A stretch of 64,000 nucleotides of DNA from Armatimonadota bacterium. GTDB taxonomy: Bacteria; Armatimonadota; UBA5829; DTJY01. The stretch spans positions 248,001 through 312,000 of the forward strand of contig JARYMF010000002.1 in NCBI GenBank assembly GCA_029907255.1, written 5' to 3'. The position numbers and the translations under genes are program-made. Positions 32,305 through 49,034 of this stretch are shown here, piece by piece (the first letter of the stretch is position 1; every line of letters starts with the position of its first letter). Under the pieces are notes generated by a model. It was not told where the DNA came from. It ran no database searches and saw only the letters and a list, made by a program, of their open reading frames with translations.

Positions 32305-32347
32305 AAAGGTGTAATCATATTCCATTGCTAGTATTAAGGAGGTATCT

Positions 32348-32464
32348 ATGGATTGGATGCTATGGGCGATTGAAGGATGCGGTATTCTCATTTTGTGCAT
32401 CTGGATTGCTGTACCTATAAGTGAATTCAGGCAGATTGCTAAACGACTCAAGGAAGAGCGCTGA
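32348..32464 (+). CDS. 38-residue single-span membrane protein upstream of the symporter
   Basis: A small gene with an unusually strong ribosome-binding site (AAGGAGGT, 4 nt before ATG), lying between the isomerase (43 nt upstream) and the symporter (36 nt downstream). The protein begins MDWMLWAIEGCGILILCIWI, forming one hydrophobic helix of about 20 residues, and ends with a basic amphipathic tail (QIAKRLKEER), which predicts the C-terminus in the cytoplasm. I recognise no named family. Position, size and topology suggest an accessory or stabilising subunit of the adjacent transporter, as is known for other small transporter partners. That role is inference. Confidence 0.7.
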   Translation: MDWMLWAIEGCGILILCIWIAVPISEFRQIAKRLKEER

Positions 32465-32500
32465 GACGAAGAAGTAAATTTTTATTACAAGGTTTAGATT

Positions 32501-34279
32501 ATGACATGGGTTGACTATGCTATTATCGGCATATTCCTAAGTGGTCTTGCGTTGGCAGGATTGACGCTATCGAAGCTTATCAGGCACTCGGATGACATAT
32601 TTGTGGCTGGTCGGCAGTTGACTCCTTTCATCCTCGGGGCTACGATAACCGCTACTAATCTTAGCATGTTTCACTTCATCTCCATGGGAGGAATCGCATT
32701 TCAGAAGGGTATCTCGATTATCTGGCAGAATTGGACTGGCAATATGGCGTTGGTATTGTCGGGTCTTTTTGTCATACCAATCATGCGCCGCTTGCGAGTA
32801 CGTTCAATTCCAGAGTTTCTAGAAATCCGATACAGTCGCTCTCTGCGTGTATTGGTTGGTGCCTTTTGGGGAATTAGGCTTTGCATATTTCTTGGAATTT
32901 TTCTATACGTTGCAACGACAACAGGCATTCAAATCACCGGCTGGAACAATCCATGGGGTTGGCTTATGGTTTTCTCACTAATTGCAATCATGTATTCGGC
33001 GATTGGCGGCGCATGGGCGGTTGCAATTATGGACTCCCTCCAGTTTGCGCTGATTATTCTGGGTGGATTAATCACTCTTCCAATCGCTGTTCACTTGGCG
33101 GGAGGTACGCCAACGCTGATTAACTGGCTTCAAACCCATGGTAAGCCAGTACATGTCCAACTGGTGCCTGCTGGAGCAGGCGAGTTCAATTGGTTGTTTA
33201 TACTTGCGATACTCTTAATTTCTACAAAGTGGGCAACCGTGGACCAAGTAATATTGCAGCGTGCACTTGGAGCAAGGAACCCTCGAATTGGAGCACAAGG
33301 AATGGTTCTATCGGGGCTGATAACAACTCCGCTTGCTTTTCTTTGGATACTTCCAGGCGTCGCTTTGGCAAAAATACATCCCGGACCTATAGAGAACCCC
33401 GATCATGCGATTCCATGGTTCTTGGCCACGTATCTACCGCAGGTGGGAAGGGGGATACTCGGCCTTGTGCTTTGTGGATTGGTTGCTGCACAGGTTTCAA
33501 CCATCACAGCGGATATCAATTCGGTCGCTACTTTATTCACAAATGATGTATTTCGAGCGATGAAGCGAAAGGAGCCAAGCCAGCGCCAGTTAATATATGC
33601 AGCTAGATTTAGCTCTCTTGTTTGTGGAGCGCTTATGCTTTGGGTAGCATATTATCTACTCATGCATTCTGTTTCCGGTGCTGTCAGAGCTAACCTGACA
33701 GTCGTTGGAATAGTGGACCTGCCGTTATTTGTTATAACAGTAATTTGGGGATTGATGTGGAAACGTACAACCTGGCAGGGGGCAATGGCGGGATTTTTTA
33801 TAGGTGGCTTGGCTGGCATTCTTACATACCTGGTGGTAACTCCAACGTATTTCCACAATATTTTATATCCTTTGATGAGTGCTATCCCTGGCAAAGTTGA
33901 TGTATGGGCGGTCGGCTGGCATGAAAGATTGAAGCATCTAGAGCCCGCCCTCAGGAATATTGCTCCTTTTGTTAGCTCGGGAACGGCATTAATTGTTACG
34001 CCAATCGTTAGCCTCCTAACGAAGCCTGTGCAAAGCGAAGGGTCTGTCAGAATTTGGACGTATTTTCGCAAAAGCGCCGATGATGAGAAAGATATTTTTC
34101 TGCTGATTCCAAACAGTTTCCGCGGCAAGATTGGTTTATCATTAGTAATCGTTGGGTTCTTAGCATTTCTTTTTGGAGCTATCTCGGCATCTTGGGGTTT
34201 TTCGCTGGCAACCGTGATGGCTGTTGGTGGAATGTGTGTGCTTTTTGTTGGCGGCGTGCTTCGCGTCTGGTCTGAGTAG
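32501..34279 (+). CDS. Sodium/solute symporter (SSS family)
   Basis: 592-residue membrane protein with about 13-14 helices. DIFVAGRQLTPFILGATITATNLS is the typical SSS opening, seen as FVAGRQLTPF and ATNLS. IPEFLEIRYS and GGAWAVAIMDSLQFALII match SGLT/PutP-type family segments. A long cytoplasmic loop precedes the last two helices. It probably co-transports a sugar or related solute with Na+. It follows the FucI-like isomerase and the 38-residue membrane protein, so the cargo may be the isomerase substrate. Family assignment is firm; substrate is inference. Confidence 0.9.
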   Translation: MTWVDYAIIGIFLSGLALAGLTLSKLIRHSDDIFVAGRQLTPFILGATITATNLSMFHFISMGGIAFQKGISIIWQNWTGNMALVLSGLFVIPIMRRLRVRSIPEFLEIRYSRSLRVLVGAFWGIRLCIFLGIFLYVATTTGIQITGWNNPWGWLMVFSLIAIMYSAIGGAWAVAIMDSLQFALIILGGLITLPIAVHLAGGTPTLINWLQTHGKPVHVQLVPAGAGEFNWLFILAILLISTKWATVDQVILQRALGARNPRIGAQGMVLSGLITTPLAFLWILPGVALAKIHPGPIENPDHAIPWFLATYLPQVGRGILGLVLCGLVAAQVSTITADINSVATLFTNDVFRAMKRKEPSQRQLIYAARFSSLVCGALMLWVAYYLLMHSVSGAVRANLTVVGIVDLPLFVITVIWGLMWKRTTWQGAMAGFFIGGLAGILTYLVVTPTYFHNILYPLMSAIPGKVDVWAVGWHERLKHLEPALRNIAPFVSSGTALIVTPIVSLLTKPVQSEGSVRIWTYFRKSADDEKDIFLLIPNSFRGKIGLSLVIVGFLAFLFGAISASWGFSLATVMAVGGMCVLFVGGVLRVWSE

Positions 34280-34506
34280 TCAAGGCATTCAGAACATAAA
34301 AAGTTAATGACTTTTACCAAGCTGCAAGGAAAAACCTCGGCAACCACAGAAGTCTGCTTTGAAATTATACAACCAACCTTTGATTTCTTCTGGCAAGACA
34401 ACGCGATTCAGCTATTAACCCACTTTAGCGTTTATGCTATTCTTCCAAGCAAAAAGTGGGTATTGACTTTGGCATGTTAGGGTAAAAAGTAAAAGGGAAT
34501 TGCGCT

Positions 34507-34524
34507 TGGTTTTTCGAAAAACCA
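34507..34524. promoter_or_regulatory. 18-bp perfect palindrome just before the DUF4434 gene
   Basis: TGGTTTTTCGAAAAACCA is an uninterrupted palindrome ending 6 nt before the ATG at 34531, where a Shine-Dalgarno should be. None is present. It could be a repressor operator or a hairpin that controls translation. Confidence 0.5.
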
Positions 34525-34530
34525 TATAAA

Positions 34531-35595
34531 ATGAACCGTCGTGAGGTACTTTCTGCAATCGGCAGATGTATCTTTGGTTCAGTAGCAGGATTGTTGGTTG
34601 GCGAACACCTGATGGCATCGCCTAAGCTTAAGTGCGCGCCTTTGATTTTAGGTCCGCTTTGGTGGATGAATCCTGCCGAGTCTGCGAAATGGGGAATATC
34701 AGGCTGGCGGGATGAACTCGACCACCAACGTAGAATCGGCTTTGACCTTCTTTGGCTTACCAATGCGCCTTCGGCGCTCGCCCATCAGGACAATCCTTTG
34801 GACAAACTCATGAATCTTTGCGCCAAGCGGAAGGTAAAAGTCATTCTTGATACCGGTTCTACAGGGAAGTGGTACCTGAAATCCGACCTGAAAGATGAAC
34901 TAGAATTCTGCACAAAAAATGTTAGGCAAATTGGTGAGCGCTTTGCAGGTCATCCTGCATTTTATGCATGGTACATACCCCACGAGATTTATATGTGTTG
35001 GGGCAAGTTCGCTGAATTGATTGAAAGTTTCTACTCTAAGCTAACTGAAAGTTGCAAAAGGGCGGCAAATCTTCCTGTTACGCTTTCGCCCTTTTTCATC
35101 CTTGACCGTGAGAAAGTTTTTGGCGATTTTAGGTATAACGAACCTGATGAGTACCGTCAATATTGGACTAAGCTAATAAAGCGGAGTGGCATTGACGTGA
35201 TAATGCTTCAAGACAGCGGTGAGCATTTTTCTTATGTTACAAATGACCAGCGCAGGCCTTTTTTTGAGGCTATGTATAACGCCTGTCGTGATTCGAATGC
35301 AAGGTTTTGGGGAAACGTTGAAACTGCTGAGTACGTTTGTCAAAGTAAAGAAGAGTACATTAGATTGTATGGACGCGTGCATCATTCGGAGGCAAAGGGG
35401 CTTCCATGGAGGCCCGTGCCAATAGAGCGCCTAAAAGAGAAGCTAATGCTTGCAGCAGAGTACTCAGAGCGTATTGTTACATGGGGTTATCGTGAATTTT
35501 GCCGACCAGTTCTCGGTCCCGAGGCGAAAAAATGGTATGATGACTATAGAAGTTACGTAGTTTCTTTGGTAAAGAAGACAGCCAGTCAAATTTAA
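34531..35595 (+). CDS. DUF4434-like TIM-barrel protein with Tat-like signal
   Basis: 354 residues. The N-terminus MNRREVL followed by a hydrophobic run resembles a twin-arginine signal. The mature part resembles DUF4434, a TIM-barrel family related to glycosidases: KVILDTGSTGKWY, then AGHPAFYAWYIPHEIYM with the conserved His151-Glu152, and VIMLQDSGEHF. The catalytic role of these residues is not established to my knowledge. The next gene, thiL, follows after 19 nt. A perfect palindrome occupies the ribosome-binding region. Exported glycan-active enzyme is a reasonable guess only. Confidence 0.72.
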   Translation: MNRREVLSAIGRCIFGSVAGLLVGEHLMASPKLKCAPLILGPLWWMNPAESAKWGISGWRDELDHQRRIGFDLLWLTNAPSALAHQDNPLDKLMNLCAKRKVKVILDTGSTGKWYLKSDLKDELEFCTKNVRQIGERFAGHPAFYAWYIPHEIYMCWGKFAELIESFYSKLTESCKRAANLPVTLSPFFILDREKVFGDFRYNEPDEYRQYWTKLIKRSGIDVIMLQDSGEHFSYVTNDQRRPFFEAMYNACRDSNARFWGNVETAEYVCQSKEEYIRLYGRVHHSEAKGLPWRPVPIERLKEKLMLAAEYSERIVTWGYREFCRPVLGPEAKKWYDDYRSYVVSLVKKTASQI

Positions 35596-35614
35596 CGCCG
35601 GAAGGTAGGTTGAT

Positions 35615-36628
35615 ATGAACCTAGCAGATATCGGTGAAGAAGTTCTGATTGAGCATCTAATGAAGGAGTTTAGCCTTCCCACATCTTCGGAAGGGCTTGT
35701 TGTTGGCGTCGGAGATGATGCGGCTGTGCTCGACCTCGGCGGTCCGATGCATACGATTATTACCACTGACATGCTTGCTGAGGGCACTCACTATCGCCTT
35801 GACCTAGTCACTCCATATCAGCTAGGCTGGAAATCGGTGGCGAGCAACATAAGCGATATTGCGGCGATGGGAGGGCTTCCAACCTGGACGCTGATATCTC
35901 TCGGATTGAAGCCCGATACCGACATCGGCTTCGTAGATGAAATTTACCGAGGGCTTGTTGAATGTGCCGAGAGATTCGAAAGCAAAATTATCGGAGGAGA
36001 TACTATTTCCGTAAGGCAGGATTCGGTGATTGGGATATGTCAGATGGGCAAAATTGAGCCAAACCTCATCGCACGACGGTCCGGTGCAAGTCCTGGCGAC
36101 CGCATTCTTGTAACGGGCTGGCTTGGAAATTCAAGGGCAGGCTTGGAACTCTTGCTAAGGTTTGGTATGGAGGAAGCAGCGCAGTTGCATGGATGGCTTG
36201 TGAGCCAGCATCTGACGCCAATTCCACGCGTGCTCGAAGCCCGTGCTGCTGTTGCAACCAATGCGGTTCGTGCGATGATGGATATAAGCGATGGATTGGG
36301 TGCTGACCTTCCAAAGTTGTGCAAAGCAAGCGGCGTTGGCGCAGTAGTATATGCTAGCAAACTACCGATAAGCAGTGATCTCCAGTCGGCTGCAGAAAGA
36401 CTGGGAATGGATACGCTGGAGCTCGTTGTCGGCGGCGGAGAAGACTTTGAACTCCTCATGGCAGTTGGACCACATGACGTTAAGAAGGTTATTAAGGCTA
36501 TTAAAGAAGGCACTGGAACTCGCGTAACCGAAATTGGAGAGTTCACAGAAGACAAGACAGTTGAGATTGTCATGCCTGATGGCTCAAAAAGGCCTTTGTG
36601 GGGAGGATGGGAGCACTTCAAAAAATAA
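35615..36628 (+). CDS. thiL: Thiamine-monophosphate kinase
   Basis: Phosphorylates thiamine monophosphate to thiamine diphosphate with ATP, the last step of cofactor synthesis. It belongs to the PurM/ThiL fold. Characteristic segments are GVGDDAAVLD near the N-terminus (metal and phosphate binding), TTDMLAEGTHY, SVASNISDIAAMGG and MMDISDGLGADL; GGGEDFELL is also typical. Length (337 residues) is standard. A purine-rich ribosome-binding site (GGAAGGTAGG) precedes the ATG. Pairing with tsaE downstream is a frequent bacterial arrangement. Confidence 0.96.
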   Translation: MNLADIGEEVLIEHLMKEFSLPTSSEGLVVGVGDDAAVLDLGGPMHTIITTDMLAEGTHYRLDLVTPYQLGWKSVASNISDIAAMGGLPTWTLISLGLKPDTDIGFVDEIYRGLVECAERFESKIIGGDTISVRQDSVIGICQMGKIEPNLIARRSGASPGDRILVTGWLGNSRAGLELLLRFGMEEAAQLHGWLVSQHLTPIPRVLEARAAVATNAVRAMMDISDGLGADLPKLCKASGVGAVVYASKLPISSDLQSAAERLGMDTLELVVGGGEDFELLMAVGPHDVKKVIKAIKEGTGTRVTEIGEFTEDKTVEIVMPDGSKRPLWGGWEHFKK

Positions 36629-36667
36629 CATCTAACTTGACGATTTCTATGGGTTTCCTTTTGATTT

Positions 36668-37132
36668 ATGACACATCTGTCCAAGACGTTTTACACATAT
36701 TCTTCCGAGGAAACAGAGCTACTTGGTGAACAAATCGGTCGGGCGCTGAGACCTGGGGCAGTTGTTGCGCTAATCGGAGAACTTGGTGCAGGCAAGACGA
36801 CGCTCACTAAGGGAATTGCGCGGGGTCTTGGTGTCACCGATCTTGTCCATAGTCCTACTTTTACACTTATCCACGAGCACAAAGGGCGCGTTCCAGTATA
36901 CCACTTCGACCTCTACCGCTTGGAAAGTCGTGAGGAGATGGAAGATCTCGATTATGAGAGCTACTTTCATGGCGAGGGTGTTACAATTATAGAGTGGGCT
37001 GAGAAGATTCCAAGCATACTACCAGACGACCGATTGGAAATATATATCTCGGAGGAGAATTCAGCTCGCCGTTTTGAACTGATTGCAACTGGTATTCAAT
37101 CTGAAGAGGTGCTTCGGCGTATATCCACTTGA
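36668..37132 (+). CDS. tsaE: tRNA t6A-modification ATPase TsaE
   Basis: ATPase partner of TsaB/TsaD in threonylcarbamoyl-adenosine (t6A) formation at tRNA position 37. The P-loop GELGAGKTT lies at residues 37-45. The family motifs SPTFTLIHEH and VYHFDLYRLES follow, and GVTIIEWAEKI is the conserved Trp region. Length (154 residues) is typical. It lies 39 nt downstream of thiL and ends 3 nt from the convergent ATPase gene. Confidence 0.96.
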   Translation: MTHLSKTFYTYSSEETELLGEQIGRALRPGAVVALIGELGAGKTTLTKGIARGLGVTDLVHSPTFTLIHEHKGRVPVYHFDLYRLESREEMEDLDYESYFHGEGVTIIEWAEKIPSILPDDRLEIYISEENSARRFELIATGIQSEEVLRRIST

Positions 37133-37135
37133 TTG

Positions 37136-39889
37136 CTACTGAGTGCGTTGATTTCCAGGAGCGTGCCGAGTTTGTGATGGCATGAATAAGTGTGGTAAAA
37201 ACGCCTTTCTGATTTCTTCAGCGATAAAGACGCTACTGGAAACCGCCACCATAATTGTCCACTCCGATAGGTTTAGAGCCACTGTGCGAAATATTGTTTG
37301 GAAAAATGGTAAATGGACTGATGCAATCTGGGCAACTGCAGACGCGGTTGCGCCAGCCAGCAAGTATGGATTAGTTAGCACGCCAATTTTGAACAATGAG
37401 TAGCGACTCGATCGAACGTTCAATGCGTTAAATGCTTGGAAAAGCGCCATAACCACAAAGGCGAAGGTTCGAGCTTTCCATATGCCTATGCTTCCAAGCC
37501 CCCAGTAGTAAAGCGAGAAGGTTCCAATTAGCATGAAAAGTGCCACAAAAACTATGTTGCTAACCACATAGCGGTTAACTATGCGCTCCTTTGGATCTCT
37601 AGGTGGTTCTTTTAGCAAGCCTGGTTCTTTTGGTTCAAACGACAGTGGAGCTGTGCAAAAGCCGTCAGTGACTAGGTTAATCCAAAGAATTTGCACCGGA
37701 AATAAAGGCAATGGGAGACCTGAGAGAATTGTAGTAAGGTATATGAATACCTCACCGGTGTTTGTTGAAAGCAGATATTGAACAACCTTGCGGATATTTG
37801 CAAATATAGCGCGGCCTTCTTCGACAGCTGATACGATTGTTGCAAAATTGTCATCAAGAAGTATCATATCTGCTGCTTCTTTTGCTACGTCTGTGCCGCT
37901 GATTCCCATAGCTATTCCGATGTCAGCACATTTGAGCGCTGGAGCATCATTTACGCCGTCGCCTGTCATAGCCACAACATGACCGCGCTCTTTTAATGCC
38001 TTAATAATTCGAAGTTTATGTTCAGGTTCAGCACGTGCAATTACAGCAATGCGTCCGATTGCTTGGGCAAGCTCTTCGTCGCTCATTCTGTCCAGCGCCC
38101 TGCCCTCTACAACCATCATTTCTCTTTCTAGAAGGCCTATCGATTCCGCTATGGCGCGTGCGGTATTAGCATGGTCGCCGGTTATCATTATGACACGAAT
38201 TCCAGCTTCCCTTGCTTGCTTGACTGCCATTGGTGCTTCTTCTCTTGGGGGATCCATCATGCCAACTGCTCCAAGGAAAACAAGGCCTGACTCTACATCC
38301 GAATGACTGATTACTTCCTGTTCACGCGGTAGTTCTTTATAGGCAGCAGCAAGGACCCTTAAAGCTTCCTCTGCCATTTCAGCATTTCGAGCTACAAATT
38401 CGGCGGCTTTATCGGAGGTGAGTGGCAGCACATCATTGCTTTTTAGGTAGGTTCCACTCATTGCAAGTATCTTTTCGGGAGCGCCCTTGACATATACGAT
38501 TTTTCGCCCATCTGGCAGTAGATGGAGCGTAGCCATATATCTCCTTTGGGAGTCAAATGGTAGTTCGGCAATCCTCTTTTGTTCATCTTCTAATTCATGC
38601 TTCCGCAAGCCAAGCTTTTCGCCTGCGACGACAAGTGCCCCCTCGGTCGGGTCGCCAACAATGCGCCATCCATTGTCCTCATGATGTAGCCGTGCATCGT
38701 TGCACAAAACTAGTGCCTCAAAAAGCCTTCGAATCCCTATGTGGTTTTTATCAATTTCTTGGTTTCCAATGAGAAACTTGCCAATCGGTGCATAACCTTC
38801 ACCAGTGACAGTGAACGCCTCCTCTGGGGTATAGCCCGCCCGGACTGTCATTTCGTTCTTTGTTAGCGTGCCCGTCTTGTCGGTACAGATTACGGTTGCA
38901 GACCCCAGAGTCTCGACTGCTGGGAGCTTGCGGATAAGTGAGTTCCGCTGTGCCATCCGCTGAACCCCAACCGCAAGTACGATAGTTACAGCTGCTGGCA
39001 AACCTTCGGGAATAAACGACACGGCTACTGCAACGCCAGTGAAGAGCATCTCGTAAAGGCTGAATGCTTTTATCAACCCGGCGGCGATAATAATCACAGC
39101 AATGGCAATTCCTACAATTCCGAGGTTCGACCCAAGAGTTGCAAGATGCTTTTGAACCGGCGTCAGTTCTCCTGGCTCGGTTGCTATGTTCAATGCAATT
39201 TGGCCGATTTTGGTGTTTACACCAGTGGCTGTGATAATTGCTTTGCCGCGGCCATAAACAACTGTTGTTCCCGAATAAACCATGTTCTTTCGGTCTGCTA
39301 GAGGTGTTTCTGGAGGAAGCGGTTCGATACTTTTATCAACTGCAAATGATTCGCCAGTTAGGTTGGACTCGTCCACTTTAAGGTTTATCGCTTCGAAAAT
39401 CCGGGCGTCGGCTGGCACGCGTTCGCCCGTGGTGAGAAGTATCACATCACCTGGCACAAGCTCGCTGGCGGGAATATTCACCTCTTCTTCATCGCGCAGT
39501 ACGATTGCTCGCGGTGCGCCCAACTTTTTCAGAGCTTCGAGTGCTCGTTCCGCCCTGTATTCCTGAAAAAATCCAATGAGTGCGTTTAGGATTAGCACTG
39601 CCATTATCACGCCGCCATCGATAGGATGGTTTGTGACGAATGAGAATAAGGCCGCAATGAGCAAAATGTAAATTAGGGGGCTTCGAAATTGGCGCATAAA
39701 GATTATGAAGGGCGAAACCGGCCTGGCTTCGGGAAGCACATTTTGGCCATATTCTGCTAACCTTGCTTGCGCCTCAGCAGTTGAGAGGCCGTCCGGAGTG
39801 CTCTTTAGGTGATCGAATACCTCATTAACGGTAATTGCGTGCCAGTTTTCTGTTCTTACTTCCTGAATCTGCTCCACTTTTTCGTTCAT
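37136..39889 (-). CDS. P-type cation ATPase, P2A (Ca2+-type)
   Basis: About 917-residue ion pump. An N-terminal cation-ATPase domain leads to helices 1-2, TGES at 178-181 (actuator), PEGLP at 294-298 in helix 4 (a Ca2+-site motif of SERCA-like pumps), phosphorylated Asp337 in DKTGTLT, and [12 protein letters not shown] with GDGVND in the hinge. [11 protein letters not shown] in helix 6 contains the N/D cation ligands of P2A pumps. This favours Ca2+ (or Mn2+) export over Na+/K+ or H+ transport. I chose the ATG at 39889 because AAGGGA lies 6 nt upstream; a TTG at 39892 is also in frame. The promoter is far upstream, leaving a leader of about 195 nt. Confidence 0.9.
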
Positions 39890-39925
39890 CAAATATCCCT
39901 TGTCTAAAACTTATGAGCGATGTTA

Positions 39926-39979
39926 GACTGCTAAGCAGTCCTTAATTTATCAACTAAACGCTTTTATCCGCAAAGCGTT
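39926..39979 (-). promoter_or_regulatory. Two hairpins in the ATPase mRNA leader
   Basis: In the untranslated leader of the ATPase gene, AACGCTTT (39957-39964) pairs with AAAGCGTT (39972-39979), and GACTGC (39926-39931) pairs with GCAGTC (39935-39940). They lie between the predicted promoter (40092-40119) and the ribosome-binding site. I do not recognise a known riboswitch; the yybP-ykoY consensus is absent. Confidence 0.4.
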
Positions 39980-40091
39980 CAGCAATTTTTGGAATTAACT
40001 TCTTTGCTCCTCTATGACAACTTCTTCTAAGAGGATTGCATTGTTGTATCAATTTGTGTTTTTAGAGTTCTTCCTTCAAAAATTCTGGTTA

Positions 40092-40119
40092 ATTATACCA
40101 AATAATCTTTGATAGTCAA
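40092..40119 (-). promoter_or_regulatory. Strong predicted promoter of the P-type ATPase gene
   Basis: On the minus strand, TTGACT (40119-40114), a 16-bp spacer ending in TGG, and a perfect TATAAT (40097-40092). The start would be near 40085, about 195 nt before the ATG. Confidence 0.65.
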
Positions 40120-40506
40120 TGCGGTTGGTTATTTCTTAATAATTATGATAATGGGTTGCTTGGTTCTTGTTTCAAAGATGCTTGGCGCCTCGATGAAAGT
40201 CACCTCTAGTAATCTTGAATCATGGTTTTTCACTTTTTAATCCTCCCAGACTTGGTGCCATTAGTATTTATATTCCCCGTGTTTCCAGTATGCAGTCGCA
40301 GGAATGAACTTGAGCACAGAAAATAAAGCTTTTTGCTAATTGGTTGTCTAACTAAAGGTTCACGAAATCTTCACTTTTTGTTCTTTTATTCTCCCATATG
40401 CTGAGGTCTTGTAATAATGGGAAGACCTCGGCAAACGTTCCAATTTGCGAATGCTGAGAAATTAGTGAACATTCGTTCCTAAATACTGTTATTTAGAGGT
40501 AATTAT
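40120..40506. other. AT-rich intergenic region before the terminase pair
   Basis: No credible gene is visible. Two inverted repeats are present: GAGGTCTT (40403-40410) with AAGACCTC (40422-40429), and CGAATG (40448-40453) with CATTCG (40470-40475). No tRNA, integrase remnant or direct repeat is evident. The strand ahead of the terminase gene has a purine-rich AGAGG before the ATG at 40507 but no clear -35/-10 pair. Confidence 0.5.
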
Positions 40507-40899
40507 ATGCTTACTACAAACCAGCGTAGGGCTATTCCCCTGCTTTTTAGGTTGACAGATGAGGAGATTGCAGAGAAGTTGAGAATAAGCAAAAGGACAC
40601 TTGATGAGTGGAAAAGGAGCCCTGATTTTGCCAGCGCCATATGCGATTATGTCAAAGAAAATCGCCGTACGGCACTTAGGTTACTTTCTGAGCGTTATGT
40701 AGAGGCTGCCCGCGAACTCGAGAGCCTCATCAAATCGAAGGATGAAAAAATAAAATACAAAGCAATTATTGACCTCCTCAAGGCAAGCAATCTTTTAAAG
40801 GACGCGGATGTTCATGAGAATGATTCAATCGAACAAATTCTCCAGCAGATTGAGGCTAAAGAATTAGGTGAAGATGATGACTCCAGCGAAGAGGATTAA
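40507..40899 (+). CDS. Phage terminase small subunit-like HTH protein
   Basis: 130 residues. The N-terminal part has a helix-turn-helix (LTDEEIAEKLRISKRTLDEWK, of the type LT..EIA..L.IS.RTL..W) as in phBC6A51-type terminase small subunits. A helical middle (RTALRLLSERYVEAARELE) is consistent with oligomerisation, and the C-terminus is strongly acidic (EDDDSSEED). Small subunits recognise DNA for packaging. It overlaps the large subunit by 23 nt, so the two are coupled. No other phage gene flanks it. Confidence 0.75.
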   Translation: MLTTNQRRAIPLLFRLTDEEIAEKLRISKRTLDEWKRSPDFASAICDYVKENRRTALRLLSERYVEAARELESLIKSKDEKIKYKAIIDLLKASNLLKDADVHENDSIEQILQQIEAKELGEDDDSSEED

Positions 40900-42265
40900 A
40901 CTTGCGGATTTGCTTTGGGGGTGGAAGCCCCATCCCACGCAAAAGGAGTGGTTATTGGACAATCATCAAGTAAAGGTGGCGGCATGTGGGAGACGTTGGG
41001 GAAAGACCGTAGCCGCAGCAATTGATGTCGCAACATATGCTATTTCAAACAACGGCTCAATCCAAATGATAGTCGCTCCCACTTATGACCAGAGCAAGCT
41101 GATTTCGCGGACAGTCGAGAGGCTGCTCCTCTCCCATTCTGAAATCCGAAAGTATACCAAGATTACTCGAACGCCTTATACTGAAATTTGCCTGCGAAAC
41201 AGCAGAATCATGGCTCGGACAGCTGATGAGGATGGAAGAAATCTCCGAGGCCATTCAGCCGACCGCGTTGTGGTGGATGAAGCTGCGTTTGTGCGTGATG
41301 AAGTAGTCGAAGAGGTTATTGGGCCAATGCTAGCCGATCGAAATGGCCAATTATCGCTGATATCAACGCCTTTTGGCAAAAACCATTTTTATCGTGCTTT
41401 CATCCGAGGAAGCAATTGTCAGCCAACAATAGCAGAGTCTGACGGCAAACATCCGATTTCCAATGCCAGATATTCATATCGTTCGTTCCGTTTCCCGTCG
41501 TGGGCAAATCCATACATCAGCAGACAGTATATAGAAAACCAGCGAGAAATATTGACCGAGCGGCAGTTTAAAATCGAATATGAAGCGGAGTTTATTGATG
41601 ACCAAAATTCAGTATTCGCCTGGGAGGACATTCAAAAGGCGATTTGCACTGAGCAAATCAACTTTGAACCGACGGCCTTTGTGGCGGGTGTTGATTGGGC
41701 ACGTTACTCAGACTACACCGCAGTGGTTGTATTGGCTGTAGGCTACCAATCGCCAGTAAATGGCGTTGGGCATGGCGCCCACCGATTCCACGTAGTTGCC
41801 CTAGACCGTTTCAACCGTATGGAATGGAAGTTGCAGGTTAAGCGAGTTGCTGACATACTTTGCCAATTTGGAGTTCGAGGAATTGCTGTAGACCAGTCTT
41901 CTATTGGCGACCCGCTTTTGGAAAACCTGGGGCATGTGCTTTGGGAAGAGCATGGGCTAGACGCAGAACTTGAGGGCGTAATCTTTACGAATAAGACCAA
42001 GCGCGAATTAATTGATAACTTAGCTGTCCGTCTTGCCCATAATGAGCTTCGGTTTCCGTATATTAAACATCTTATCCAGGAGCTCCAATTTTATGAATAT
42101 GAGCTAACGGAATCGGGGAACGTGAGAACTAGCGCACGGAGGGGATATACTGACGACTGCGTCTGCGCCCTAGCGCTTGCACTGCGCATTGCGCCGAGAT
42201 ATTTGTTTGGTGGTAACTTTTTGACCACAGGCCGAATAAGAGATTCAGTGAAAGGATGGTATTAG
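40877..42265 (+). CDS. Phage terminase large subunit (ATPase plus nuclease), intact
   Basis: About 462 residues. The ATPase domain has a Walker A GRRWGKT and a Walker B VVVDEAAF, then a coupling motif around LISTPFGKNHF. The C-terminal RNase H-like nuclease has its acidic residues in VAGVDWARYSDYTA, GIAVDQSSIGD and DDCVCALALAL. All catalytic positions appear intact, so the protein is likely functional. Start candidates are GTG 40868 and ATGs 40874 and 40877; AGGTGA six nt before 40877 favours the last. The stop overlaps the convergent alr stop by 4 nt. No portal, capsid, tail, integrase or lysis gene is next to it. Confidence 0.88.
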   Translation: MTPAKRIKLADLLWGWKPHPTQKEWLLDNHQVKVAACGRRWGKTVAAAIDVATYAISNNGSIQMIVAPTYDQSKLISRTVERLLLSHSEIRKYTKITRTPYTEICLRNSRIMARTADEDGRNLRGHSADRVVVDEAAFVRDEVVEEVIGPMLADRNGQLSLISTPFGKNHFYRAFIRGSNCQPTIAESDGKHPISNARYSYRSFRFPSWANPYISRQYIENQREILTERQFKIEYEAEFIDDQNSVFAWEDIQKAICTEQINFEPTAFVAGVDWARYSDYTAVVVLAVGYQSPVNGVGHGAHRFHVVALDRFNRMEWKLQVKRVADILCQFGVRGIAVDQSSIGDPLLENLGHVLWEEHGLDAELEGVIFTNKTKRELIDNLAVRLAHNELRFPYIKHLIQELQFYEYELTESGNVRTSARRGYTDDCVCALALALRIAPRYLFGGNFLTTGRIRDSVKGWY

Positions 42266-43398
42266 GCAGTCTGATGGTTTTTCGCGTTGACGTATACCCT
42301 TGGGACCCGCTTGCTGACAGAGCATATGACTTCGTCGGCAATCGTGTTCTGAAGGTCGGCAATTTCTTCTATGGAAATAAACTCGTTTCCCTGCCGCCCG
42401 TAGAGGACAACTTCGTCGCCTGTGGAAACTCCAGGGACGTCGGTTACGTCAAGCATCACTTGGTCCATGCAGACTCTTCCGATGACTGGTACTCTTATTC
42501 CATGAACCAAAGCTGGTGCTCGATTTGAGAGCAACCGGTTGTATCCATCAGCATAGCCAATGGGAATTGTGGCAACCAGAGTGCGCCTCTTAGCAACAAA
42601 AGTTCGGCCATAGCCCACCGATTTACCAGGAGGGAGCTCCTTTAGGAAAACAATTTTGGTCTTTAGGGTCATCGCTTGCCGTAGCTCAACATCACGGACG
42701 AGGTGCTTTGTGTCGTGAAGACCGTATAGCATTATTCCTGGCCGCACCATGTCGAAGTATGACTCGGGTAAGTTTAAAATTGCCGCACTGTTTGCCATAT
42801 GTCGAAGAGGGATGCGGATGCCCGCTTTGCGGATTTCATCTGTGAGTCGTCGGAATTCCTCAATCTGTGCATGAGAAAAACTTAAATCTGGGTCGCCAGA
42901 AGAGGGGAAGTGTGTAAAAATCCCTTCGATTTCCAACCCAGGCATTCCTGAGAGTTGGGTTGAGAACCCCACTGTTTCAGCTGGACTAATGCCCAGGCGT
43001 CCCATGCCAGTGTCAACCTTGATATGGACCTTCATCCGCTTGCCTGCTTCTACAGCGCATTTTGAAAGCTCAGCGGCAAATACAAGATCGCACACCATTG
43101 TGCTCACGTTGTGTGCAATAATCTCCGGAATGCTGTCTGGAAGAACGCATTGAAGGATTAATATTGGCGCATTAATACCAGCGTTCCGAAGTTCAAGTGC
43201 TTCCTCGAGGGTGGCTACTCCTAGCATTTCGGCGCCAGCGTTGAGGACTGCTTGGCTTACGGGGATTGCACCGTGCCCATAGCCGTCAGCCTTCACAGCT
43301 GGACATATCTTTACTTCCGGTCCAACTAGATTTCGGACCTGTCGAAAATTAAACGCAATTGCTTCTAAATCAATTTCGGCAACCGTAGGTCGAAACAT
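42262..43398 (-). CDS. alr: Alanine racemase
   Basis: PLP enzyme that makes D-alanine for peptidoglycan. The PLP lysine is Lys36 in AVKADGYGHG. The second catalytic residue, Tyr, lies in IGYADGYNRLL, and GRVCMDQVMLDVT is the conserved substrate-binding segment. Length (378 residues) is typical. It starts 34 nt after the M20 peptidase gene with AAGGAT upstream, so it is the last gene of a three-gene run. Its stop codon overlaps the stop of the convergent terminase gene. Confidence 0.96.
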   Translation of the reverse strand: MFRPTVAEIDLEAIAFNFRQVRNLVGPEVKICPAVKADGYGHGAIPVSQAVLNAGAEMLGVATLEEALELRNAGINAPILILQCVLPDSIPEIIAHNVSTMVCDLVFAAELSKCAVEAGKRMKVHIKVDTGMGRLGISPAETVGFSTQLSGMPGLEIEGIFTHFPSSGDPDLSFSHAQIEEFRRLTDEIRKAGIRIPLRHMANSAAILNLPESYFDMVRPGIMLYGLHDTKHLVRDVELRQAMTLKTKIVFLKELPPGKSVGYGRTFVAKRRTLVATIPIGYADGYNRLLSNRAPALVHGIRVPVIGRVCMDQVMLDVTDVPGVSTGDEVVLYGRQGNEFISIEEIADLQNTIADEVICSVSKRVPRVYVNAKNHQTA

Positions 43399-43432
43399 CG
43401 TAAAATCCTTATTAAAAAATTACTCTTGATAG

Positions 43433-44542
43433 TCATTTTGCCAATAGTCTAGTTGTGACTTCAGCATATATGCGCGCCGCAAGGCATACCTGCTCCAGGT
43501 CAACGTATTCGTTTGCCGAATGTGCTTGCTCAAGCTTGCCTGGCCCAAATACAACCGCATCAACCCCAATGCCCGTTTGGAATGATTCTGCGTCTGTCCA
43601 TCCGCGCCAGCCGACAATCTCAGGTGCATGCCCGAGAATCTTCTCGCCCGCAGAAGCAAGCGCGCACACAAGGTTTGAGTCATGCGGTGTGTTAAGCGGT
43701 TCGCCCTGTTTTGCAATATTATAGTCTGCCTTCCCCTTCCAATCGTCGAAGTACTGTCTTATGCGATTAAGAAGTTCCTTAACGGTCATTGGTGGCACTA
43801 ATCGAATGTCTACTGCCGCCTCACATCGGTCGGGTACGCGGTTTGGTCGGTCGCCTCCTTTTATTATCCCTAAGTTCATTGTTCCTGGCCCAATTAGCGG
43901 ATGGGATGGGTATTCTGTCGCTACTTTGCGAAGTCCGGAAATAAGCTCAAACATTCGGTCAATCGCATTGACGCCTTGCATTGGGATTGAACCGTGGGTG
44001 GATTTTCCGTAGGTGGTGATCTCCAAAATAAGCAAGCCGCAATGGGTTGGCACCATCTGGAGGTTGGTTGGCTCGCCTGTAATTACCATATCGCATTTAT
44101 AACCATTCTCGATTGCCGACCGAACGCCTTGCGCATCGCCTTCTTCATCAACGGAAATAAACAGGTCTAGTGTGCCGTTAAGTTTGACATCCGCTTCGGA
44201 GATTGCCCGAATTGCGGCAACCATGGCGGCAATTGATGCTTTATCATCTGCACTACCCAGCCCATACATGCGTCCATTCTTAATCTTTGCTTTGGGCACT
44301 GACTTTCCACTAGGAGGAACTGTGTCAGAATGAGCGTTCAGGCAAAGTATGGGGCTTCCATTTCCAATTCGTACTAGAAGGTTAAAGCGGTCTTGCGTTA
44401 CCGTCAGGCGGTGCGGGGTAAATCCCAAACACTTGAGTTCATCCTCAAGAAAAAGCATGATTTCCTTTTCGTTCGGAAAGACGCTTGGTATATTCACAAG
44501 CTTAGTATGCAGGTTGATTAAATACTTATCGTCAATGCGCAT
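43433..44542 (-). CDS. M20-family metallopeptidase/deacylase (ArgE/DapE-like)
   Basis: 369-residue zinc-dependent amidohydrolase. The metal ligands are visible in LNAHSDTVP (His, Asp), GLGSADDKAS (Asp), SVDEEGDAQG (Glu-Glu pair, catalytic Glu) and GEPTN. The dimerisation domain occupies about 175-285, including YGKSTHGS. Substrates in the family are N-acyl amino acids or dipeptides; ArgE, DapE and carboxypeptidase-like roles are all possible. It sits between an FAH-family gene and alr, so an amino-acid role is plausible. Confidence 0.87.
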   Translation of the reverse strand: MRIDDKYLINLHTKLVNIPSVFPNEKEIMLFLEDELKCLGFTPHRLTVTQDRFNLLVRIGNGSPILCLNAHSDTVPPSGKSVPKAKIKNGRMYGLGSADDKASIAAMVAAIRAISEADVKLNGTLDLFISVDEEGDAQGVRSAIENGYKCDMVITGEPTNLQMVPTHCGLLILEITTYGKSTHGSIPMQGVNAIDRMFELISGLRKVATEYPSHPLIGPGTMNLGIIKGGDRPNRVPDRCEAAVDIRLVPPMTVKELLNRIRQYFDDWKGKADYNIAKQGEPLNTPHDSNLVCALASAGEKILGHAPEIVGWRGWTDAESFQTGIGVDAVVFGPGKLEQAHSANEYVDLEQVCLAARIYAEVTTRLLAK

Positions 44543-44620
44543 CTTTAATTAATTGAGCTGAGTGCAAAAGATGGTGTGGTGGAAAACTCTCAAACTTCCA
44601 TTGCCTTATTTTTCTGTGTC

Positions 44621-45520
44621 CTACTCGCTCACCACTGGATTCCTTAAAATTCCAATCTTTTCTATCTCGACTTCCATAATATCCCCGGGAAACACTGGCT
44701 TCATCCCTTCAGGGGTGCCTGTTGAAATAACGTCGCCAGGGAATAGCGTATGATATTGGGATATCCAGTGAATAAGGTATGGTATCTTGAACATCAGGCT
44801 TCGTGTGTTGTCTTTCTGGCGAACTTCGCCATTCACACGAGTTTCAATGTCAAGCTCGACGGGCTCGTGAATCTCGTCTGGAAGCACAATCCAAGGTCCG
44901 AGAGGGCAGAAGGTATCAATCCCTTTCGACCTAAGCCATGGGCTTGAAATGCTTAAATCATGCTTTTGTAAATCACGAGCTGTTACGTCGTTCATTATTG
45001 TGTATCCAGCAATATACGATTCCGCCTCGCTCTCGGGAATGCTTGAGCCTTCCTTGCCAATAATTACTGCAAGTTCGCCTTCAGGATCAACACGAGTAAG
45101 GAATTTTTTGTAAATAACCGGCTCATCTGGACCAATTACCGCCGAGTTCGCCTTTGCGAATATAATTGGTTCGGTCGGTATCGCCATGCCGCTTTCGAGA
45201 GCATGCGCCATATAATTTCGCCCCAGGGCGATAATCTTCGAAGGCCTTTTAATTGGCGCAAGAAGCTTGTACTGCTTCACAGTGAAGCGCTCCATCATTC
45301 CGTGTTTCTTGGAGAAATCAAGAACATTTTGGAATGTCTCGACGGAAAATAATCCCTTTTCCATTAGCTCCATTGGTGAGTGAACGGGGCATTCGCACAC
45401 TTGTTTTTCAAAGAGCTGATATGCCTGAAAGGCACCTGTGAAATTGAATACTTCACCGTTGAGCACGATTCCAATATTTTCTGGCCCAAGATCTGGTGCA
45501 GCAAAGCGAGCGATTTTCAT
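44621..45520 (-). CDS. Fumarylacetoacetate hydrolase-family protein
   Basis: About 299 residues. The C-terminal two-thirds is the FAH fold: KIIALGRNYMAHALESG, then DPEGELAVIIGKEG with the metal-binding acidic residues (E-x-E-L-A type), GYTIMNDVTARDLQ, and FPGDVISTGTPEGM. These enzymes hydrolyse or decarboxylate beta-diketo or oxo acids (FAH, oxepin, HpaG, oxaloacetate decarboxylase activities). I chose the ATG at 45520 because AGGAG lies 7 nt upstream; the longer frame to 45562 has no such site. It begins a minus-strand run with the M20 peptidase and alr. Confidence 0.87.
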   Translation of the reverse strand: MKIARFAAPDLGPENIGIVLNGEVFNFTGAFQAYQLFEKQVCECPVHSPMELMEKGLFSVETFQNVLDFSKKHGMMERFTVKQYKLLAPIKRPSKIIALGRNYMAHALESGMAIPTEPIIFAKANSAVIGPDEPVIYKKFLTRVDPEGELAVIIGKEGSSIPESEAESYIAGYTIMNDVTARDLQKHDLSISSPWLRSKGIDTFCPLGPWIVLPDEIHEPVELDIETRVNGEVRQKDNTRSLMFKIPYLIHWISQYHTLFPGDVISTGTPEGMKPVFPGDIMEVEIEKIGILRNPVVSE

Positions 45521-45552
45521 ACTATTACTCCTAATAAGTTGGTTGCAGAGGT

Positions 45553-45582
45553 ATGTTACCACTGCCTTCGAATATGGGTCAA
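45553..45582 (-). promoter_or_regulatory. Predicted promoter of the FAH-M20-alr run
   Basis: On the minus strand, TTGACC (45582-45577), an 18-bp spacer ending in TGG, and TAACAT (45558-45553). The start would be about 27 nt before the ATG at 45520. Confidence 0.5.
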
Positions 45583-45749
45583 GAGGATGAAAAAATGGAA
45601 GATGGGGCTGTATGAAAGTAGGTCAAAGTATTTATTTTGCAAGCGATGATTCTTCATCTCCTCCTAAAGGATTGCCATCTTTGGTTGTCGAACAGATAGG
45701 CCAGATATCCATGGGATTGCACTCGAACTAGAAGTCAAGGATTCTACCA

Positions 45750-48700
45750 ATGCACATTTCTTCAGACGTTGTAGGCTCTCGTGTTGACATTGCGCCTTTT
45801 GGCATAATTAGCTATTGGATTGGCTCAGATAGGTTTACAATTGAAAGACGTGACGCTCCGAGTGATGGAACGGCATGGCTTCCAGTTGATGCACCGGAGC
45901 ATGGTGGACCGCATATTGGGTTGGAATGGGAATGCCCACGCCGTTTTTCGATGGTCGAAGTCAGGTATGCCAAACAGCAAGCTCCTTCGCCAGGCATGGT
46001 GAAGCTCCAATATTGGAATCATACCTGGCCTGAACAATGGGCAGGTGGTTGGACTGCTGTCGAGGATGCATATAATGGCAAATGGGTAACAGCCCACGAT
46101 AATGTTGAAGTAGTAGGAGATGTTTGGAGACATACCTTCGACCCACTTGACATTGTTGAGCTTCCGCATGCGGAGGACTTTTCGGTAAAGTTCCGCCAAT
46201 CGCTCAAACTCCGTCTGCTTTTTCATGATACTGGTCCACGTATTGAGCATATCAGCGTCTTTTCTGATTCAATCTGGCGGAAGGCGACACTACGCGTGGA
46301 ATTTGGGATAAATAGCGGGGGTATTACCTTTGCAGGCAATGTGGAGGTTTACAATGGCTATCTACTTTCAATGGATGAGTCGAATCCGAAGGCAATTGTC
46401 ATTGAGGTTTTGTATGCCGATGTGGATGCTGACTTTCTTGAGAAGGCGGCTCCTTTGCATCCCGATGCGACAGTGGTAACCGTTAAGTGTAGGGAACGGA
46501 GTTTCTCATTTCAAGTGACCGATGCACTCAACAGCGGCGTATATATCCCCGATTTTGGGGTATTTGTTGGTAAAGAGGGCTCAGGCGGATTTAAGCAATG
46601 GCGTCGAGAAGGAGTGGTCTCAATCTACGACCGGGTCGCTGCTGAACCGGAGCAAACATACGAGCGTGCCAGCGCAGAGATACCTCGGCTTTGGAAAACT
46701 CGCCAGGGCCCATATGGCCGTTACTGTCCAATTGGATGCGATGCTAACCGTCAGGAGTTCGCAGTTCGATATAATGGTGACATCTTTGCGGACAAAAGTT
46801 TGTTGAAACTGGTCGGTAGGGACGCTGCAAGGCTCCTTTGGCCAGGAAAAGCAATTTGGTTCAAATTTCCTTCTGGCGAACCACCTGACTTCCGTGAGCG
46901 CGAAGATGCAACCAGCCAGTCGCCGCTGAGGGGCTATCTGCCAATCTACTTGAGCCAATGGATGAGCGGAGACATCCAGTATAAGCAAACAACATTTGCT
47001 GCTCTTTTGTACGAAAGCCCTTGGCAGGAGGAAAGCAAGCGTGGAGACGAGCCGGTTGTTGCATTGTCTAGAGTTGCCATTCGCAATGTGGGAGCTCGGC
47101 GCCAGGTTAGTCGTTTATGGCTAGTAATCGAGAACCCTGAGTTGCTTGTCATAGACAAAGGTTTTATTTATGCAACAGGCCGGGCAAGGGATGCTAATTC
47201 GCATGACCCAAGCAAACCAAAAAAGTGGATTGTTGAGCCATACGATTCGCCTCGGATGAGGGCTTTTATAGATACAAGGTGCAAGGGGGTGGCGGCACCA
47301 TCGTGTTGTTCATATTCTCCATTGGATGTTATTGGCATCAACAATGCAATTGCCTATGACGTTGAGCTTGAACCAGGCCAGGAACACGAAATTGAGTTTC
47401 GTATTCCATTTATAACGTTTACTGGCAATGAAGGCGTGGAGGCAGTCGGGGCTCTTAATTATGAACTTAAGCTCGAAGAGACAATCGAGTACTGGGAGGC
47501 TCAGATTAACTCGGGCGCCGCTTTCTATGTGCCAGAGCAGTTACTAAATGATTTCAACCGTGCCAATCTATGCCATATCGCTATCACAGCAGATAAGGAT
47601 GTTGATACAGGACTTTATATGTTAGGTGCAGGAACTTGGGACTATCAGGTATTTGGCACTGAGACAGTTGACCAAGTTAGATCCCTTGATTTAAGAGGTT
47701 ACCACGAACGTGCGCGCAAATATATCATGCCTTTTGTTGAACTGCAAGGTAGCCGCCGGATGGACGGACGGTTTAAATCGCAAGAAGGCGCACTTCATGG
47801 ATTGCGAGTAAGCGAGGATTATGACTACCAGGTAGGTGATTACAGCCTTGACCACGGGACGATTCTTTGGATGCTGGGCGAACATTATCGCCTTACGAGA
47901 GATAAGGTATGGCTGTCCAAGATTGCGCAAAATATGGTTGATGCTTGTAATTATGTGGTCAGAGAACGACAAGCTTCAATGCGCACAGCACCTGACGGTT
48001 CGAAAGTGTGGGAATATGGACTTCTGCCGCCGTGCCACCTAGATGACAACCCTGAGTGGAAGTATTGGTACATAGTGAATGCCCTCTGCTACAAAGGGAT
48101 GAAAAGTACAGCGGATGTGCTAAAAGAGATTGGCCACCATGAAGCTGAGCGAATTTCCTGCGAAGCAAGGGCATATGGCGAGGATATCCGGCGGGCAATA
48201 GCGGTTTCGATGGAGCGTTCTCCTGTCGTGAAGCTTTTGGACGGCAGCTGGATTCCACATTTGCCGGTGCGTGCCTACCTGAGGGGCCGTGATGTCGGCT
48301 GGATTCGAGATTCGCTCTATGGCCCGATTTTCAATATTGACTGCGGCTTGATTGAGCCAAATTCCATTGAGGCAACTTGGATTCTCAAGGATTACGAAGA
48401 TAATGTCTTTGTCTCAAGGTCGTTAGGCAGGGATGTCGACCTTGAACATTTCTGGTTCAGCCATGGAGGAATTACCATCCAGTCAAACCTACTACCGAAT
48501 CCGCTTGTTTACCTTGTTCGCGGGCAGGTCGAGCATGCGCTTCGGGCTTTCTATAATAGTTTTGCAGCTAATCTCTATGCTGATGTACGTTGTTTTACAG
48601 AGCATCCTGTCGTAGCTTATGGCTGGGGCGCAGGGCCATTTTATAAGACACCTGATGAGTCAGCGTTCCTCACCTGGTTTAGGTACCTTTTGTTAATGGA

Positions 48701-49034
48701 GCGTGAGGATGCGCTTTTGCTGTGTCCTGGAACCCCCAGGAAATGGTTAGACGACGGCAAAGAGATTGAAATTACTGAAGCTCCTACATACTTTGGCCCC
48801 ATAAGCTACCGTGTGGTATCTGAAGCCTCAAAAGGCCGCATTTTTGCTGAGATTACTCCGCCCCGCAGGAATCCGCCGGCAAGTCTGAAACTTAAACTGC
48901 GCCATCCAAGCAAACTGCCGATTAAATCTGTCAAAATTAACGGAATGCCATGGTCAAACTTTGATATGGCAACTGAGATAATTTCGATTTCAATGCCTCT
49001 GCAAGAGGCATTGGAGGTAATCGTAGAGTACTAA
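45750..49034 (+). CDS. Large six-hairpin (alpha/alpha barrel) glycosidase-like protein
   Basis: 1094 residues. The N-terminal 600 residues are beta-sandwich domains. Residues 620-1000 look like an alpha/alpha toroid with repeated helix pairs, including GTWDYQVFGTETVDQVR, DHGTILWMLGEHYRLT and FYNSFAANLYADVRCFTEHP. This layout is found in GH78/GH95/GH127-like enzymes, but I cannot name the family or place the catalytic acid. A C-terminal beta-sandwich (about 1000-1094) completes the protein. There is no signal peptide, so it is probably cytoplasmic. The start is the first ATG in frame and has no Shine-Dalgarno. Confidence 0.68.
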   Translation: MHISSDVVGSRVDIAPFGIISYWIGSDRFTIERRDAPSDGTAWLPVDAPEHGGPHIGLEWECPRRFSMVEVRYAKQQAPSPGMVKLQYWNHTWPEQWAGGWTAVEDAYNGKWVTAHDNVEVVGDVWRHTFDPLDIVELPHAEDFSVKFRQSLKLRLLFHDTGPRIEHISVFSDSIWRKATLRVEFGINSGGITFAGNVEVYNGYLLSMDESNPKAIVIEVLYADVDADFLEKAAPLHPDATVVTVKCRERSFSFQVTDALNSGVYIPDFGVFVGKEGSGGFKQWRREGVVSIYDRVAAEPEQTYERASAEIPRLWKTRQGPYGRYCPIGCDANRQEFAVRYNGDIFADKSLLKLVGRDAARLLWPGKAIWFKFPSGEPPDFREREDATSQSPLRGYLPIYLSQWMSGDIQYKQTTFAALLYESPWQEESKRGDEPVVALSRVAIRNVGARRQVSRLWLVIENPELLVIDKGFIYATGRARDANSHDPSKPKKWIVEPYDSPRMRAFIDTRCKGVAAPSCCSYSPLDVIGINNAIAYDVELEPGQEHEIEFRIPFITFTGNEGVEAVGALNYELKLEETIEYWEAQINSGAAFYVPEQLLNDFNRANLCHIAITADKDVDTGLYMLGAGTWDYQVFGTETVDQVRSLDLRGYHERARKYIMPFVELQGSRRMDGRFKSQEGALHGLRVSEDYDYQVGDYSLDHGTILWMLGEHYRLTRDKVWLSKIAQNMVDACNYVVRERQASMRTAPDGSKVWEYGLLPPCHLDDNPEWKYWYIVNALCYKGMKSTADVLKEIGHHEAERISCEARAYGEDIRRAIAVSMERSPVVKLLDGSWIPHLPVRAYLRGRDVGWIRDSLYGPIFNIDCGLIEPNSIEATWILKDYEDNVFVSRSLGRDVDLEHFWFSHGGITIQSNLLPNPLVYLVRGQVEHALRAFYNSFAANLYADVRCFTEHPVVAYGWGAGPFYKTPDESAFLTWFRYLLLMEREDALLLCPGTPRKWLDDGKEIEITEAPTYFGPISYRVVSEASKGRIFAEITPPRRNPPASLKLKLRHPSKLPIKSVKINGMPWSNFDMATEIISISMPLQEALEVIVEY

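Follow-up and report, generated by a model that had tools for sequence, protein, structure and literature searches.

Two intact, overlapping reading frames on the forward strand, encoding the small (TerS) and large (TerL) subunits of a phage terminase, lie in what we call the window, the 64,000-nucleotide stretch of Armatimonadota DNA analysed here (Table 1). The frames share positions 40868-40899, with the ATG at 40874 as a likely start of TerL, and TerS carries a helix-turn-helix that is detected by profile and also visible in the TerS alignment. In an alignment of 31 TerLs, the GRRWGKT loop, D137-E138, D276, D342, D429 and D430 are invariant; we take these to be the Walker A, Walker B and nuclease residues, respectively. 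A coupled, intact terminase pair with its catalytic motifs, as proposed by an earlier sequence-only reading of this DNA, is thus borne out by the overlap, the profile matches and the invariant columns, and the overlap by 4 nt of the TerL and alr stops (42262-42265) is likewise as described there.

Ten flanking proteins were scanned (30844-49031), of which nine are of host type (fucose isomerase, SSF symporter, DUF4434, AIRS-family (ThiL-like), TsaE, P-type ATPase, alanine racemase, M20 peptidase and FAA hydrolase); the remaining protein matched no Pfam family at 1e-8. As its neighbours are host genes, the terminase pair is locally alone, and the earlier statement that no other phage gene accompanies it holds for the neighbourhood but fails for the genome, which carries head genes on another contig, C4. 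The protein without a Pfam match at this threshold is 1094 residues long and is encoded at 45750-49034 of the window. No tRNA was found in the window or in the four other loci scanned, Rfam gave no match upstream of TerS, and no integrase was seen in the subset of proteins scanned near the terminase and head loci.

After the Pfam profile PF03354 returned no match in the own genome, we searched for TerL relatives with a protein query, and 52 of the 101 genomes searched gave a match. TerLs with 37-40% identity to that of the window were also seen on four Archaeoglobales contigs (L046-L049).

Table 1. Features of the terminase locus (window coordinates) and of the head-gene locus (contig coordinates).
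Feature	Position	Strand	Evidence or remark
44-nt block	40379..40422	+	33/44 identical, ungapped, to C4:19764-19807 (minus strand), upstream of portal
Promoter-like motif GTCTTRTAATWATGGGA	40406..40422	+	core of the 44-nt block
LexA-type box GAACATTCGTTC (putative site)	40467..40478		40 nt upstream of the TerS start
TerS, helix-turn-helix	40507..40899	+	phrog_7344 1e-15; PF13022 9.4e-7
TerL	40868..42265	+	phrog_2 1e-45; Terminase_6N 2.5e-10; PDB 4zni 1.8e-22
Major capsid	C4:16115-17017	-	profile; Mu-like gpT 1.7e-80
Protease (Mu-like)	C4:17626-18411	-	profile
Portal	C4:18527-19711	-	profile; Portal_Mu 4.8e-76
Endolysin VanY/M15 (family f1)	L121:13796-14215		end of the C4 head block; phrog_2649 1.6e-28

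A second locus with head genes

Profile searches of the own genome gave one match each for portal, capsid and protease, all on the minus strand of C4, and each core gene searched is single-copy in this genome. The check that the sequence-only reading had proposed, a genome search for these three genes, therefore recovered all of them, and the absence of portal, capsid and lysis genes that it noted on both sides does not extend to the genome, where an endolysin gene also lies beside the head genes. The block runs from 19747 to 13796 (C4:13.8-19.7 kb) in the order portal, protease, cement protein, capsid, a 113-residue protein, adaptor, stopper, two small proteins of 92 and 104 residues, and the VanY/M15 endolysin. 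Its flanking genes are CysD-, CysNC- and sulfotransferase-like, as named by eye, and include one for a GFO/IDH oxidoreductase, as tested on the copy in genome G001. The portal additionally matches P23-45_portal_barrel. The lysis enzyme varies by family: several genomes of family f3 carry an Amidase_3 (L096:19081-19548) in place of the VanY/M15 peptidase of family f1.

PHROGs assigned no family to the adaptor or the stopper, which we describe from predicted structures. The model of the 103-residue candidate stopper (pLDDT 94) aligns with the T1 stopper (Z 9.9, rmsd 3.0, 90 aligned residues), with lambda (Z 8.7, rmsd 2.9, 85 aligned) and with 6tba_3A, a chain from the native virion of the gene transfer agent RcGTA (Z 6.8, rmsd 4.0, 79 aligned); as predicted, this protein has the stopper fold of phage neck proteins. 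For the 146-residue candidate adaptor (pLDDT 77), Foldseek alone gave no fold, and a second structure comparison ranked phage adaptors first, with the P74-26 neck nearest (Z 8.3, rmsd 3.3, 100 aligned) and the SPP1 connector complex also matched (Z 7.2, rmsd 4.3, 102 aligned); at Z values under 13 for a helical protein, these matches are only suggestive of an adaptor. Both proteins, which are tail-attachment parts, are conserved across families. Of the rows obtained for them, 25 of 28 were used for the stopper (L277, L140 and L139 left out) and 23 of 29 for the adaptor (L158, L277, L160, L140, L139 and L137 left out), where one omitted row in each set had a stop codon and the rest were dropped by choice.

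Tail genes were sought with four probes, a small and model-bound set. Neither the tape-measure family PF10145 nor the baseplate family PF04865 has a match in the own genome or in family f1, while 8 of the 28 class genomes match each of them (for PF10145 at E 0.01, with six over the cut-off). Of the two probes taken from phage contig L168, the tail tube gave a single weak match in the 28 genomes (G005), not in the own genome, and the tape measure gave none in the 28; both proteins were named by eye, and the tape-measure probe lacked a positive control. PHROGs gave no tail name to seven genes of phage contig L167 or to three of L149. Prophages with tail or baseplate genes do occur in some genomes of the class.

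Distribution, descent and selection across the class

In relatives from the same class, the genes that follow TerL include those for the portal, the head protease, a phrog_1731 virion protein and the major head protein. Most other families of the class keep terminase and head genes in a single cluster, which is unbroken or almost so in many genomes (e.g., G005, G024, G018 and G007). Host genes sometimes lie within it: G008 has one of the aquaporin family between TerL and portal, and G012 and G027 have one for an SDH-type protease. In family f1 (the own genome G000, G001, G003 and G004), TerL and the head genes are found on different contigs, and in family f8 they lie 152 kb apart (TerL to portal) on one contig of G100, where an NFACT gene adjoins TerL. 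In the own genome, a distance of 68 kb or more separates the two loci, provided that contigs C2 and C4 abut. The comparison with relatives that had been suggested from the sequence alone thus did reveal a contiguous head cluster, but not the loss of the rest here: the remaining genes have been relocated rather than deleted, and the case that would have refuted that reading, a full prophage in relatives whose other genes are missing here, was not encountered.

Among the 28 class genomes (the own and 27 others), TerL, portal and protease are each found in 23 and capsid in 25; all four occur in 21, some in four and none in three (G002, G010 and G025), a tally that leaves aside a weak TerL match in G002 (28% identity), probably from another phage. 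The element's genes also turn up on five contigs classed as viral in IMG/VR (L051, L165, L166, L170 and L171), where they are 46-91% identical to those of class genomes; these contigs are probably fragments of bacterial chromosomes rather than viral DNA. One genome has a second, different capsid set beside long uncharacterised genes (G006:C68, L149), probably a true prophage, and the capsids of phage contigs L167 and L168, which have other downstream genes, are 64-66% identical to those of the element, making these contigs its possible nearest free relatives.

The trees of the element's genes largely follow that of rpoB. Mantel correlations are 0.896 for TerL and 0.886 for capsid (30 genomes each) and 0.917 for portal (28 genomes), with none of 2000 permutations as high in any of the three, and they remain at 0.84, 0.70 and 0.81, respectively, within the class, where the fast-evolving G013 and G021, kept in the full test, were excluded. 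Agreement with rpoB is nonetheless partial: 16 of 27, 15 of 27 and 17 of 25 splits are in common for TerL, capsid and portal, and G013 and G021 are misplaced in the element trees. Where computable, and with saturated values excluded, dN/dS of the element's genes ranges from 0.019 to 0.238 over eight genome pairs, with capsid lowest in most of them; between the own genome and G001, it is 0.115 for TerL and 0.111 for the adjacent alr. By these trees and dN/dS values, the element's genes are under purifying selection and are mainly vertically inherited. In-frame stops were observed in the portal and capsid of G001 (L123), from the same genus, though not in its TerL, and one each in the capsid of G015 and the TerL of G013; they mark either defunct copies or mistakes in the assembly.

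Upstream DNA common to terminase and head genes

A pattern-free comparison of the 250 nt upstream of TerS with those upstream of the portal brought out the 44-nt block of Table 1. This pair has the top score of the 1275 formed by 51 upstream regions, and 300 shuffles reached at most 27; a second pair scoring at least 30 among the 1275 involves neither TerS nor portal. With up to two mismatches, the core of the 44-nt block, GTCTTRTAATWATGGGA, which, like the LexA-type box, had been spotted before being tested, occurs 12 times on the two strands of the 2.14 Mb of stretches fetched, 11 times before TerS or TerL and once before the portal of G037. This promoter-like motif marks terminase operons across the class. 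Its 12 matches in IMG/VR contigs are all away from the element's genes.

The pattern of the putative LexA-type box, GAACN4GTTC, resembles the Gram-positive SOS box. In 6 of 18 genomes, it is present no more than 300 nt upstream of TerS, against a mean of 0.072 and a maximum of 2 of 18 over 2000 rounds of shuffling, and upstream of both TerL and portal in G004. Of 30 LexA-like loci, nine also have it, 433-456 nt ahead of the LexA domain, but a perfect box is absent at both LexA-like loci of the own genome. A further copy inside the cement gene was set aside as probably coding.

A proposed GTA-like particle and its alternatives

Our best reading is of a vertically inherited system with a Mu-like head, whose terminase and head loci are unlinked in family f1, and we consider it probable that TerS and TerL form the packaging motor of a particle of phage origin, domesticated by the host, that packages DNA in the way of gene transfer agents (GTAs). 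The dispersed GTA raised in the sequence-only reading is therefore the best supported of its proposals, through the second head locus, the mainly vertical inheritance, the purifying selection and the common upstream DNA. In such a system, head assembly would start on a stress signal, which in some families would probably be DNA damage that relieves LexA; TerS and TerL would fill the heads with mainly host DNA until full, the adaptor and stopper would close them, and the lysis proteins would set the particles free. Host DNA is the expected cargo because the loci are probably too distant for one headful and no mobility gene was seen nearby.

A definition of GTAs (RcGTA, BaGTA, VSH-1) by six features is given in PMC9662315: particle proteins derived from caudoviricetes; full endogenization, often over multiple loci; mostly vertical inheritance, co-diversifying with hosts; inability to package the own whole genome; packaging of mostly random host DNA; and delivery of DNA to other cells. 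Read against these features, and by its genes, the system described here has caudoviricete-derived proteins (similarity of TerL, portal, protease and capsid, and the stopper fold), is endogenized as two loci among host genes, and follows rpoB with Mantel r of 0.89-0.92. It thus resembles RcGTA, BaGTA and VSH-1, as there described, in having head and packaging genes of phage origin that are fixed over several loci of the host genome and inherited with the host. It differs from them in its Mu-type head proteins, in its phylum, in that no tail gene was found, and in the helix-turn-helix of TerS. The last difference counts against a GTA, as the TerS of RcGTA is reported to lack a specific DNA-binding domain (PMC7947584). 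Going by its genes, the system could work like a GTA and may be one.

Among phages, its portal, protease and capsid families are those of Mu-like phages and prophages (PF06074, PF10123, PF10124), the capsid being ∼40% identical to that of Faecalibacterium phage Mushu, but unlike in these no tail cluster lies beside the head genes, the loci are split and descent is vertical. Besides the adaptor and portal likenesses described above, Thermus phages P74-26, P23-45 and G20c have TerLs about 28-31% identical to that of the window; these are free lytic phages, unlike the element.

The Mu type of portal, protease and capsid, the in-frame stops in G001, G015 and G013 and the lack of a detected tail gene would also be expected of a Mu-like prophage in decay, broken up and dispersed by rearrangement; the genes are, however, intact here, all four core genes are kept in 21 of 28 class genomes, the terminase-operon motif is conserved and dN/dS stays within 0.019-0.238 in eight genome pairs, which makes decay quite unlikely. 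Capsid-forming phage-inducible chromosomal islands have a head-only gene set too, and are mobile and single-locus. A satellite of this kind, borrowing the tails of helper phages, could find these in the tailed prophages of some class genomes, but the two unlinked loci, the mainly vertical descent and the lack of an integrase among the proteins scanned render it very improbable.

That the terminase was captured by itself, as a host nuclease or DNA-handling module, would fit its separation from the head genes in families f1 and f8; we regard this as exceedingly unlikely, and the stand-alone nuclease module of the sequence-only reading as disfavoured, given that terminase and head genes co-occur in nearly every class genome and have upstream DNA in common here. 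A domesticated head and packaging system might instead serve another job, such as altruistic lysis, DNA storage or protection, or interference with infecting phages. The retention of head, packaging and lysis genes and the failure to find a tail gene in the own genome speak for such a role, whereas the conservation of the adaptor and stopper across families, together with the narrowness of the tail search, speaks against it, and we think it unlikely on balance. Returning to the GTA-like particle, a more specific version can be put forward only tentatively, as possible though rather doubtful: an ancient, tail-less GTA of Mu-like head origin, present in several families and induced in SOS fashion, whose sealed, DNA-filled heads would be freed by lysis and whose DNA would reach kin through natural uptake or borrowed tails.

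No description of such a system was found, by title or start of abstract, in open-licence literature on GTAs with Armatimonadota or Armatimonadetes or on prophages with Armatimonadota. Incomplete prophages of Armatimonadetes are tabulated in PMC8597652, and one entry, of 7.1 kb and annotated "Portal; head; capsid", is possibly the same element. New GTAs in distant bacteria cannot yet be located through homology or gene content, as stated in a review (PMC11841831).

Proven GTAs come from few lineages, and a head and packaging system that is dispersed, mainly vertically inherited and found across families of Armatimonadota would represent an independent domestication of a phage. A gene set limited to the head prompts one to ask what a particle of this kind requires, and the operon-marking motif offers a handle for finding the remaining genes.
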